Below, piece after piece: positions 2,926 to 7,394 of a stretch of DNA of 38,572 nt. The position numbers and the translations under genes were made by a program. The stretch covers positions 1 to 38,572 of the forward strand of contig JAATFC010000091.1 in assembly GCA_015655435.1 (NCBI GenBank), written 5' to 3'. Every line of letters starts with the position of its first letter. Within the stretch, counting starts at the first letter, position 1. The notes under the pieces were generated by a model that ran no database searches, was not told where the DNA came from, and saw nothing but the letters and a program-made list of their open reading frames with translations. Origin of the DNA: Chitinophagales bacterium (GTDB lineage: Bacteria > Bacteroidota > Bacteroidia > Chitinophagales > Chitinophagaceae).

Positions 2926-3001
2926 GATATAAATTGGGACTTCGTAATCTATATTATTGTTGGTGATAACACCAACAAAGGCAGGAAAGATTCGGTAGGA
3001 T
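2911..3001. repeat. 18-bp direct repeats bracketing a palindromic repeat at the dgt 3' end
   Basis: The same 18 nt (GGAAAGATTCGGTAGGAT) occur at 2911-2928, spanning the dgt stop codon, and at 2984-3001. The 55 bp between them ends in the palindromic repeat at 2957-2978. The arrangement resembles a duplication made when the palindromic element arrived, although part of the 18 nt (GGAAA-ATT) is also part of that element's own tail. Confidence 0.7.
2957..2978 (+). repeat. Dispersed palindromic (REP-like) repeat, copy 1
   Basis: Core TGTTGGTGATAACACCAACA (2958-2977): 9-bp arms TTGTTGGTG/CACCAACAA around ATAA. It is followed by AGGCAGGAAAGATT. Copies 2 (5577-5598) and 3 (6016-6037, opposite orientation) share the 20-nt core and a GGCGG-AAA tail. 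Confidence 0.8.
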
Positions 3002-3114: not shown

Positions 3115-3960
3115 TTGAGTTTAACAATCCAGACCAAAGACCTTGTCAAGATATACCACAGTCGCACGGTTGTCAACCACGTTTCCGTCAAGGTAAACCA
3201 AGGTGAAATCGTCGGACTATTGGGACCGAACGGTGCGGGCAAAACCACAACTTTTTACATGGTTGTAGGACTGATACAACCCGAGGAAGGAAGCGTGTAC
3301 CTGAACGAGGAAGACATTACCAAATTGCCCATGTACAAACGGGCACAGATGGGCATCGGTTATCTGCCGCAGGAGGCTTCCGTTTTCCGCAAACTCAGCG
3401 TTGAAGACAATATCATGGCAATTCTGGAAATGACTAATCTCACAAAAGACGAACGTAAGGACAAACTGGAATCGTTGCTCAACGAATTCGGATTACAACA
3501 CGTGCGCAAAAACAATGGCGACAGCCTGAGTGGTGGCGAACGTCGTCGTACGGAGATTGCGCGAGCATTGGCTATAGACCCGAAGTTTATCCTATTGGAC
3601 GAACCGTTTGCAGGCGTTGACCCAATAGCAGTGGAGGATATCCAGTCCGTCGTCGCTAGACTGAAATACAAAAACATCGGCATCCTCATTACCGACCACA
3701 ACGTAAATGAAACGTTGTCCATCTGCGACCGTGCCTACTTGTTGATTGACGGTAAAATATTCCGCCACGGAACAGCCGAGGAACTTGCCGAAAACGAACA
3801 AGTCAGACGTTTGTATCTTGGTACTAACTTCGAGTTGAAACGAAAAGACTGGATTTTGGAAATGGGAAAAACGCACGGCGAAAGCTTAAAAAACAAAGAC
3901 AACAAGGAAGCGGAAAGAGATGTAGAGGAAGAAAAGATTGAAGAGAGCGAGGAGAATTAA
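3115..3960 (+). CDS. lptB: LPS export ABC transporter ATP-binding protein LptB
   Basis: 281 residues, the cytoplasmic ATPase that powers LPS extraction by the LptBFGC complex. It shows Walker [11 protein letters not shown]-loop [17 protein letters not shown] (typical of LptB), signature LSGGERRR, Walker [14 protein letters not shown] and switch His in TDHNV. The best start is TTG at 3115, giving [14 protein letters not shown]; no in-frame ATG fits. LptB is usually about 240 residues, so the highly charged C-terminal tail of about 40 residues (ending [11 protein letters not shown]) is an extension. lptFG are not in the window. The next gene is also LPS-related. Confidence 0.9.
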
Positions 3961-3975
3961 AAGACATAGTTAACA

Positions 3976-4013
3976 CGATTTGATTCTTCTTTCTTTGTCT
4001 TTAAATCAAATCG
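3976..4013. terminator. Weak inverted repeat after lptB
   Basis: CGATTTGATT (3976-3985) pairs with AATCAAATCG (4004-4013) across an 18-nt pyrimidine-rich loop. It may be a weak terminator between lptB and the transferase gene; the long loop and low GC leave this uncertain. Confidence 0.3.
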
Positions 4014-4038
4014 ATCATTTCGTTATTTATAATTAAGA

Positions 4039-5565
4039 ATGTTCAAGTTAAAAAATACTTTAAGTCTAAGTCGCTTTGCGGCGATAATGAGTGTCCTCAA
4101 TTTTGTATTGTATCATTATGGATTCTTTTCTTTCGTAGCCAAAAACGTTGAGCCTAAAAGCCTAAATGGAATTATTATCATAGTGAGCCTAGTAATAATA
4201 ATGTCGGTTGCGAACTTTTTTACTTTTTATCTGATATGTTTTTTGTCTCGTATTGTCGGAAAATCCTTATTGGTATTATTTTTCCTACTCAACGCTATTG
4301 CAGTTTACTTTGTCAATACTTATAGTGCAATAGTGGACGAAAGCATGATTGGAAATGTACTTAATACCAATTATTCGGAGTCAAGTAGTTTCTTTTCTTT
4401 TAAACTAGTACTATACATTATTTTTCTGGGCATTCTTCCTAGCATTTATGTTATCAGAACCAAAATAGAAAAAACACGTATAAAAAGGTTTCTTGTAATC
4501 TCTTCTTCTGCATTGGTATTCCTTCTAGTTTTGGCATTTGCAAACGCTAAGAATTGGTTGTGGATTGACAAAAATTCAAAGCAGTTGGGAGGCTTGGCAA
4601 TGCCTTGGTCGTATACTGTAAACACTACACTTTTTTACGTCCATCAACACCAAAAAAACAAAAAGGAAATCCTGTTGCCCAACGCTACTATAAAGGACGA
4701 CAAAAAATCGATTGTGGTATTGGTCATTGGCGAATCGGCAAGAAGTGAGAATTTCTCATTGTACGGATACAAGAAAAATACAAATCCGTTGCTTTCCAAA
4801 ACGCCAAATGTCTTTCCTTTCAAAGCAACATCGTGCGCAACGTACACCACGGCTGGCGTAAAATGTATTTTGGAACACAAAAACTCCAGCGACCTATACG
4901 AAATCCTACCCAATTATCTATACAGAAACAAAGTAGAAGTAATCTGGCGAACGACAAACTGGGGCGAACCTCCCGTGCATATCAAAAACTACGAGAACAA
5001 AGAGAAACTGGAATCCGAATGCAAAACTGGTGATTGCAAATACGACGAGGTACTCTTGACCGGATTGAAAGAGGAGATATTGGCAAGCAAAAGCAATAAA
5101 ATATTTATAGTACTGCACACAAGCACAAGCCATGGACCATCATACAGCAAAAAATATCCACCACAATTTGAAACATTCAAACCCGTATGCAATAGCGTCG
5201 AACTAGGCAATTGTTCGAAAGACGAACTCGTCAATGCTTATGACAACACCATTGTTTACACAGACTATATATTGCATAATGTAATCGAGGATTTGAAACA
5301 GTTGAAAGACTATAGCAGTACAATGCTTTTTGTTTCGGACCACGGCGAATCCTTGGGAGAAAACAACCTCTATATGCACGGACTTCCATTGAGTATTGCA
5401 CCAAAAGAACAGTGCGACATTCCATTTATCGTCTGGGTTTCCGACAATTCACGGCAGTTAAAACCGGAACAAGCATTGACTCAAAACAATGTTTTTCATA
5501 GTGTATTGAACTTCCTTGGTATTCAGAGTCCGATTTATGATGAGGGTATGAATATTTTTAAATAG
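4039..5565 (+). CDS. EptA-like lipid A phosphoethanolamine transferase
   Basis: 508 residues. About five hydrophobic segments fill the first ~170 residues (e.g. GIIIIVSLVIIMSVANFF, FLVISSSALVFLLVLAFA), followed by a periplasmic sulfatase-fold domain. Motifs of the EptA/MCR family are present: VIGESARSENFSLYGY (metal-binding Glu), SCATYTTAGVKC (contains the likely phosphoenzyme Thr), LHTSTSHGPSY, and FVSDHGESLGENNLYMHG (Asp-His metal ligands). Cysteine pairs (CKTGDC, CNSVELGNC) recall family disulfides. The enzyme would transfer phosphoethanolamine from phosphatidylethanolamine to lipid A phosphates, a change that lowers binding of cationic peptides. It follows lptB, which supports an LPS role. 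A different glycan acceptor cannot be excluded. Confidence 0.85.
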   Translation: MFKLKNTLSLSRFAAIMSVLNFVLYHYGFFSFVAKNVEPKSLNGIIIIVSLVIIMSVANFFTFYLICFLSRIVGKSLLVLFFLLNAIAVYFVNTYSAIVDESMIGNVLNTNYSESSSFFSFKLVLYIIFLGILPSIYVIRTKIEKTRIKRFLVISSSALVFLLVLAFANAKNWLWIDKNSKQLGGLAMPWSYTVNTTLFYVHQHQKNKKEILLPNATIKDDKKSIVVLVIGESARSENFSLYGYKKNTNPLLSKTPNVFPFKATSCATYTTAGVKCILEHKNSSDLYEILPNYLYRNKVEVIWRTTNWGEPPVHIKNYENKEKLESECKTGDCKYDEVLLTGLKEEILASKSNKIFIVLHTSTSHGPSYSKKYPPQFETFKPVCNSVELGNCSKDELVNAYDNTIVYTDYILHNVIEDLKQLKDYSSTMLFVSDHGESLGENNLYMHGLPLSIAPKEQCDIPFIVWVSDNSRQLKPEQALTQNNVFHSVLNFLGIQSPIYDEGMNIFK

Positions 5566-5576
5566 CTCTTGTTTAT

Positions 5577-5598
5577 TTGTTGGTGATAACACCAACAA
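5577..5598 (+). repeat. Dispersed palindromic (REP-like) repeat, copy 2
   Basis: Same 20-nt core as copy 1 (5578-5597), followed by TGGCGGGAAAAATT. It lies 11 nt after the transferase stop and faces copy 3 across the small gene at 5641-5922. Confidence 0.8.
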
Positions 5599-5640
5599 TG
5601 GCGGGAAAAATTATAATAAGGTTTAGAATTGGAGATGCGA

Positions 5641-5922
5641 TTAATTCATAGATAATAGTTTTTTCAATTTACGGTATTCATCGAGTAAGACCGCCCGATG
5701 TCCCCAGTTCTCGGCTTCATCTTCTACTTTTGGATTTATGAATGTGCCTTCTGGCGAAATAAAATAGATAGTTTCTAACCCGGCCTGAATAGAATTTCTT
5801 TTCTGCTCCTCTGTTTCTTCCGCTATACCAAGTTGCTCTTTTGTATAATCCCAATCTCTGTCGAAAACCTGTTCAAATGCCTCTATAAACTTATTTATCG
5901 AGTTTATTAAATCTTTGTCCAT
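5641..5922 (-). CDS. Hypothetical protein (93 aa) bracketed by palindromic repeats
   Basis: Not a family I recognise. The frame can be read from 5988, but the first 22 residues (MRVFIYVSSKLESTLQFKIC) look non-coding; the natural start is MDKDLINSINKF at 5922, giving 93 residues. The protein is acidic, probably mostly helical and soluble: KFIEAFEQVFDRDWDYTKEQLG, then ETIYFISPEGTFINPK, and a helical C-terminus (LLDEYRKLKKLLSMN). No signal peptide or membrane segment. It is the only minus-strand gene between eptA and dxr and sits exactly between inward-facing copies of the palindromic repeat, which suggests a small acquired or mobile cassette. Function unknown. Confidence 0.6.
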   Translation of the reverse strand: MDKDLINSINKFIEAFEQVFDRDWDYTKEQLGIAEETEEQKRNSIQAGLETIYFISPEGTFINPKVEDEAENWGHRAVLLDEYRKLKKLLSMN

Positions 5923-6015
5923 ATTAATACATATTTTGAACTGCAGGGTTGATTCAAGCTTGCTACTAACATATATAAATACACGCAATATACCAATTTA
6001 TGCCATTTTCCGCCA

Positions 6016-6037
6016 ATGTTGGTGTTATCACCAACAT
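6016..6037 (-). repeat. Dispersed palindromic (REP-like) repeat, copy 3 (inverted)
   Basis: Reverse-oriented copy of the 20-nt core (6017-6036). Read on the minus strand it continues TTGGCGGAAAATGG, matching the tail of copy 2. Copies 2 and 3 therefore form inverted ends of a 461-bp segment. Confidence 0.8.
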
Positions 6038-6183
6038 ACTTCTATCCTAGTCTGTAAAGTATTTAAAAACGGTACGGACTTACTTGTCAAGTGTCGTTTT
6101 CATTATGGCTAGCCCGTTCTTTTTCATTTTTGTTAAAAGAATAAGCTATATTGTCTTCTTTTCACTATTAGACCATTAACCGT

Positions 6184-6233: not shown

Positions 6234-7394
6234 ATGAATTCAACTAAAAGAATTGCCATTTTCGGCTCTACAGGTTCCATTGGCAAGCAGGCACTGGAGG
6301 TCATTGCAGCGCACCCTGACAAATTCTCCGTTGAAGTATTGACCGCCGCGACCAACGACGAGTTACTGATTAGTCAGGCTTTGAAATTCAACCCCAATAT
6401 AGTTGTCATCGTTGACGACTCACGTTACCAGCATGTCAAAGAGGCATTGAAAAGCACGGACATTAAGGTATTTGCAGGCGAACAGTCCCTATTGGACGTG
6501 GCGTCGATGGACTGCTATGACATGATTCTGCAGGCAATCGTCGGTTATGCAGGGCTTTTGCCAACCATAAAAGCAATTGAAACAGGCAAACCAATTGCCC
6601 TTTCCAATAAAGAAACCTTGGTTGTGGCTGGCGACCTGATTATGGGAATGGCTGCGGCAAAACAAGTTCCCATCATTCCCGTTGACAGCGAGCATTCTGC
6701 TATCTTCCAATGTCTGATGGGTGAAGGCAGAAATAAAATAGAAAAAATCATATTGACGGCGAGCGGCGGACCTTTCCGTGGCAAAAAGCCCAACTTTTTG
6801 GTCAATGTAAAAAGAGACCACGCATTGGATCACCCCAACTGGAAAATGGGTGCGAAAATATCTGTTGACTCCGCTACGCTAATCAATAAAGGTCTGGAAA
6901 TGATCGAGGCAAAATGGTTGTTCAACCTCAAGCCAGAACAGATAGAAGTCGTCGTACATCCGCAAAGCATCATCCACAGCATGGTACAGTTTGAGGACGG
7001 CGCTATCAAGGCTCAGATGGGTTTGCCCGATATGAAACTGCCCATCCAATACGCTTTGGGATTTCCGCAAAGACTGCCAAATGCTTATCCACGTTACGAT
7101 TTTCGCCATCCGGGCGAACTGACATTTGAAGAGCCGGACTACAAAACGTTCCGCAATCTCTCTCTTGCCATCGACGCGATGGGTAAAGGCGGCAACATGC
7201 CCTGCATATTGAATGCTGCCAACGAAATCGCGGTTTATGCCTTTTTGAAAAACCGTATTGGATTTTTGGACATTACAGACGTAATCGAACAAGCAATGAC
7301 CAAAGTCAAATTTATCGAAAAACCATCCTTGGAAGATTATATTGACAGTGACGGAGAAGCTCGTAATTTTGCCGCTTCATTGGTACATATTTAA
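6234..7394 (+). CDS. dxr: 1-deoxy-D-xylulose 5-phosphate reductoisomerase
   Basis: 386 residues, the usual Dxr length. Converts 1-deoxyxylulose 5-phosphate to 2-C-methylerythritol 4-phosphate with NADPH, the committed step of the MEP isoprenoid pathway, in the cytoplasm. Evidence: N-terminal NADPH-binding IAIFGSTGSIGKQALEVI, the ALSNKETLVVAG block, metal/substrate residues in IPVDSEHSAIFQCL, LTASGGPFRG, the flexible-loop HPNWKMGAKISVDSATLINKGLE, and the C-terminal NAANEIAV motif. rseP follows after 41 nt on the same strand, so the two are probably co-transcribed, as is common in bacteria. Confidence 0.97.
   Translation: MNSTKRIAIFGSTGSIGKQALEVIAAHPDKFSVEVLTAATNDELLISQALKFNPNIVVIVDDSRYQHVKEALKSTDIKVFAGEQSLLDVASMDCYDMILQAIVGYAGLLPTIKAIETGKPIALSNKETLVVAGDLIMGMAAAKQVPIIPVDSEHSAIFQCLMGEGRNKIEKIILTASGGPFRGKKPNFLVNVKRDHALDHPNWKMGAKISVDSATLINKGLEMIEAKWLFNLKPEQIEVVVHPQSIIHSMVQFEDGAIKAQMGLPDMKLPIQYALGFPQRLPNAYPRYDFRHPGELTFEEPDYKTFRNLSLAIDAMGKGGNMPCILNAANEIAVYAFLKNRIGFLDITDVIEQAMTKVKFIEKPSLEDYIDSDGEARNFAASLVHI

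Follow-up and report, generated by a model that had tools for sequence, protein, structure and literature searches.

A CGCC-tagged REP family around an orphan gene in a Chitinophagales genome and its probable pairing with RAYTs of Bacteroidetes subclass 2.6

The DNA under study is a stretch of 38,572 nt from the draft genome of a Chitinophagales bacterium (contig JAATFC010000091.1), referred to below as the window. Between its eptA-like gene and dxr lies a 461-bp segment with a short, tailed repeat at either end and one small orphan gene inside, and the question raised by this locus is whether the segment moves as a unit or whether the repeats stand around the gene by position only. A sequence-only reading had likened it to a minimal mobile or REP-bracketed cassette. 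The explanation that we propose, with a probability of about 0.88, is that the repeats form a REP family with a RAYT (REP-associated tyrosine transposase) of subclass 2.6 as its probable cognate enzyme, and that the bracketing is positional.

The window was scanned for TGTTGGTGATAACACCAACA, and exact copies were found at 2958 (+), 5578 (+) and 6017 (-); the chance expectation, determined on shuffles of the window with up to three mismatches allowed, was 0.01 matches. The two tailed repeats in opposite orientation, with tails inward and a single 93-codon gene between them, were confirmed by their coordinates (Table 1). The core had been described as a 20-nt palindrome; the copies and their coordinates are real, while the 20 nt form a perfect 8-bp hairpin with a 4-nt loop (ATAA) and not a full palindrome. 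Copy B, the tail of which reads TTGGCGGAAAA from 6016 downward, sits in a divergent spacer, and the GGCGG tails of copies A and B both point inward. Copy A, when read on the minus strand, consists of a 5'-CGCC tag followed by the hairpin. A comparison of the window with Rfam gave no match.

Table 1. Coordinates of the repeats and of the genes around them in the window.
Feature	Position	Strand	Details	Score or remark
REP copy C, dgt-lptB spacer	2958..2990	+	hairpin 2958-2977 + tail AAGGCAGGAAAGA	46.2 bits
ABC transporter ATPase, called lptB here	3115..3960	+		in same-genus genome dxr directly follows
eptA-like phosphoethanolamine transferase	4039..5565	+	upstream neighbour	
REP copy A	5578..5610	+	hairpin 5578-5597 + tail ATGGCGGGAAAAA (from 5598)	49.7 bits, E 1.7e-10 in genome
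Orphan gene, 93 aa	5641..5922	-	between copies A and B	no family, no homologue found; codon score 0.12
REP copy B, inverted	6004..6036	-	hairpin 6017-6036 + tail TTGGCGGAAAATG	42.2 bits
dxr, 1-deoxy-D-xylulose 5-phosphate reductoisomerase	6234..7394	+	downstream neighbour	

The orphan gene is the only well-supported gene between copies A and B; eptA and dxr are both encoded on the other strand. The codon score of the orphan gene, 0.12, falls within the range of this genome's real genes and exceeds the scores of 97.5% of 197 spurious ORFs. Homologues of the 93-aa product were sought in Pfam, PHROGs, NCBIfam, PADLOC and PDB, and among phages, plasmids, viral contigs, genome contigs and 395 Bacteroidota genomes, with nothing significant found; nor was a relative found in the genome of the same genus (G001).

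The window's genome was searched for the core with up to three mismatches, and the core was found to recur. Sixteen copies, oriented manually according to their tails, were aligned to give a covariance model with an 8-bp stem (R1), and the genome was searched with this model. About 20 sites were located in the draft, including the three in the window, and several of these are close pairs. With the tail placed on the right, most copies read [stem 8-10 bp]-[4 nt]-[stem]-A-N-GGC(G). The GGC(G) tail, which is CGCC on the other strand, is kept in most copies as an unpaired tag at one end, and the consensus of the tag-first strand is 5'-CGCC-N-T-TGTTGGTG-(4-5 nt loop)-CACCAACA-A. On the 5' side of the hairpin CGCC stands where a GT[AG]G tag would be, so the family is not of the GTAG type. 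In the stem 96.9% of the cells are paired and four of the eight pairs have changed on both sides, as in the compensatory arm changes TGCAGGTG with CACCTGCA and TGTTGGAG with CTCCAACA; the pairing values were reached in 0 of 500 shuffles, and slid structures were 27-77% paired. On a crude ORF map all strong sites are intergenic; a weak one of 24.6 bits (L238) overlaps the start of an ORF. The unit that recurs through the genome is the hairpin and tail of ~30 nt only; for the interior of the 461-bp segment no second occurrence was found there.

A perfect 8-bp inverted repeat at about 20 sites could also represent the operators of a DNA-binding regulator, that is, 20-bp inverted repeats with the half-site TGTTGGTG that mark a regulon. 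We consider this extremely unlikely, as the matched changes in both arms preserve pairing and not a read sequence, the one-sided tail is conserved, sites are present at convergent gene ends besides those upstream of genes, and in other genera the repeats flank RAYTs. The hairpins might instead be intrinsic transcription terminators, and some do lie near gene ends, that of copy A starting 12 bp past the eptA stop codon. A T-run is missing on both strands, however, and a terminator scan reported none of the window's three hairpins. Copies were also located in divergent spacers (window 6017; L226 4784), and the conserved GGC tail likewise speaks against termination, to which we assign a minimal probability.

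The relatives of the organism point to a transposase. Several of 20 relatives carry many copies of the repeat, and just two weak matches were found in G001. A Y1_Tnp search gave matching genes in most of the 20, with IS200-type and RAYT-type enzymes together. In G009 the RAYT ORF lies between copies of the window's repeat family, the downstream copy being only a few bases past the stop codon. The hairpins nearest to the RAYT of G005 are TTCGTTGGTC...GACCAACGAA-GGCG, just past the stop codon, and CCGTTGGTC...GACCAACGG upstream. These two RAYTs (45% identical) were aligned, and 149 genomes of the family were then searched. The 30 best loci with a RAYT, each from a different genome of other Chitinophagaceae, were chosen by the RAYT alone and scanned with R1, which had been trained on the window's genome only. 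At E<=0.05 there were 89 matches in 98.7 kb, against none at the same threshold in 1.10 Mb of sequence around dxr from 80 relatives. At a threshold stricter than this one, 19 of the 30 loci had a repeat at <=200 bp from the RAYT, 13 of them with repeats on both sides, and the tails of the nearest copies pointed outward from the RAYT in 12 of 14 cases upstream and 16 of 18 downstream.

The association was also seen at the level of whole genomes. A RAYT was present in 53 of 63 repeat-bearing genomes vs 38 of 86 others (Fisher p 4.6e-7), and a member of the closer RAYT clade in 23 of 63 vs 14 of 86 (p 0.004), with shared ancestry ignored in both tests; in 10 of the 63 repeat-bearing genomes no RAYT was found at E<=1e-8. 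The repeats are REPs, being multi-copy structured hairpins that are extragenic, have a one-sided tag and are associated with RAYTs in relatives. The REP interpretation first made from the window was borne out in this way, with copies of this repeat directly flanking a RAYT in relatives. The expectation of a RAYT gene held for the relatives and not for the window's own genome, where none was found; the draft is 82% complete, so this is weak evidence. With about 20 sites and no RAYT found, the set is therefore a relic, or its RAYT went unassembled. The one candidate, on contig C255 (L017 1138-1404, G000:C255), was rejected as a broken IS200-type TnpA on a contig without window repeats.

Further hairpin forms were observed beside RAYTs of the family. 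In one, the loop is of about 25 nt and not 4-5 nt, with the stem and GGC tail kept (L243 1426-1483; L250 1424-1480 and 2119-2175; L251 2036-2096). Hairpins of another type, with a 3-nt loop (e.g. CCTCGTTTGTAACGAGG), stand beside some RAYTs (L073, L096, L099, L100), those of G009b and G013 having such neighbours and that of G007 having both this kind of hairpin and the window's kind nearby; the 3-nt-loop hairpins suggest a second RAYT-REP specificity. G007 also contains several copies of a ~190-nt unit (L060-L064) composed of two inverted REPs with the tags outermost and a conserved interior, which looks like a REPIN.

If the 461-bp segment were a mobile cassette, the inverted REPs would have served a RAYT as ends and been moved together with the orphan gene as passenger, the whole being a non-autonomous unit. 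A RAYT would then be capable of transporting a passenger gene. In agreement with this, inverted REPs flank a single orphan gene, and gene and repeats are both missing at the corresponding place in G001. The inward tails, however, are opposite to those of the RAYT-bracketing pairs and of the conserved ~190-nt REP pair of G007, and neither the segment nor the gene has a second copy. A search for other genes bracketed likewise showed that REP-to-REP segments hold unrelated genes; the inward REP pairs of G007 share no cassette gene. One of these pairs (L059 1248-1849) encloses two small genes, which by eye look like a RelE/ParE-type toxin-antitoxin pair.

The comparison with G001 also bears on the cassette. 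In that genome dxr comes directly after lptB, and similarity to the window resumes at about 6174, so that by this comparison window positions 3961-6173 are a variable spot. The difference amounts to ~2.2 kb and includes eptA, an eptA-family gene being located at another place (G001:C1:1277935), and its edges are not at the repeats. An empty eptA-dxr site, which the cassette reading had led one to look for in close relatives, was not found with its ends at the repeats in G001, the one other genome of the genus compared; no empty site fits the bracket because G001 is without eptA there as well as without the segment. In the 80 dxr loci of more distant relatives, neither lptB nor eptA was found beside dxr in the stretches covered. 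As a separate observation, a dehydrogenase-like gene was seen between dgt and lptB in G001. With its tails opposite to those of the RAYT pairs and no second copy, the cassette is not supported and we judge it very unlikely; the bracketing of the orphan gene is a result of position and not a mobile unit.

For the REP family with positional bracketing, a course of events can be proposed. By analogy with characterised TnpAREPs (PMC8266576), a RAYT would bind the single-stranded hairpin beside its tag, then cut and rejoin the DNA, and would act on the repeats with strand specificity. On the same analogy, copies may have spread into intergenic DNA either singly or as inverted pairs. Copies A and B would have entered, or been carried into, the two spacers around the small orphan gene, and probably arrived there independently of each other.

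The RAYTs of the relatives were compared with known enzymes. With the NCBIfam model REP_Tyr_transpos the G005 RAYT scored 92.2 bits (cut-off 80) and the G009 RAYT 74.5 bits, just below the cut-off, and the sole sequence match of the RAYT among solved structures was TnpAREP 4ER8. The motifs are NHIH/WQ/YIHQNP in G005 and NHIH/WE/YIHDNP in G009, the latter two residues off the published ones. In subclass 2.6 (Bertels group 5), which comprises TnpAREPs of Bacteroidetes, the motifs are NH[LIV]H, WQ and YIH[QN]NP (Quentin et al. 2018, PMC6006769). Members of this subclass are flanked by 'atypical' REPs without GT[AG]G, found by manual inspection, with copies elsewhere in the genome (PMC6006769). 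The relatives' RAYTs fit subclass 2.6, the repeats are matched to those of the subclass by taxon, motifs and description, and the cognate enzyme of the window's repeats is most likely a RAYT/TnpAREP of this subclass.

In the literature consulted, the REPs of subclass 2.6 are described only as 'atypical' structures (PMC6006769), and for REPs of a RAYT subclass a searchable consensus, a CGCC tag with a TTGTTGGTG hairpin, is now available. The pairing of RAYT and repeat holds over many Chitinophagaceae genera, with the dxr loci as control. The tag rule can now be put to the test by asking whether CGCC is the tag read by a RAYT that has no GTAG guide.

Three known systems can be set beside this family. 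The subclass 2.6 REPs (PMC6006769) agree with it in phylum, in RAYT motifs (NH[LIV]H, W[EQ], YIHxNP), in an enzyme of ~175-185 aa, in flanking hairpins without GT[AG]G and in having further genomic copies; they differ in that WQ is replaced by WE in one of the two reference RAYTs, and in that the window's genome has repeats but no RAYT found in the 82% complete draft. The GTAG REPs and REPINs, mostly from gamma-Proteobacteria (PMC3733652), are likewise short intergenic hairpins with an unpaired one-sided tag, occurring singly or in inverted pairs and associated with RAYTs, whereas the window's tag is CGCC, in the place of the GTAG guide of classical REPs, and the RAYT is from a different subclass. 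The CGTC REPs (PMC3733652), a type known in Bacteroidetes, resemble the window's repeats in a stem of 8-9 bp, a loop of 4-5 nt, an A-T pair at the foot and a C-rich tag of similar form. In the window's family, by contrast, the tag is CGCC and no CCA tail was seen on the opposite side, and the repeats adjoin RAYTs, whereas no transposase was found adjacent to CGTC repeats (PMC3733652); the likeness in form to REPs reported without a transposase is a lead.
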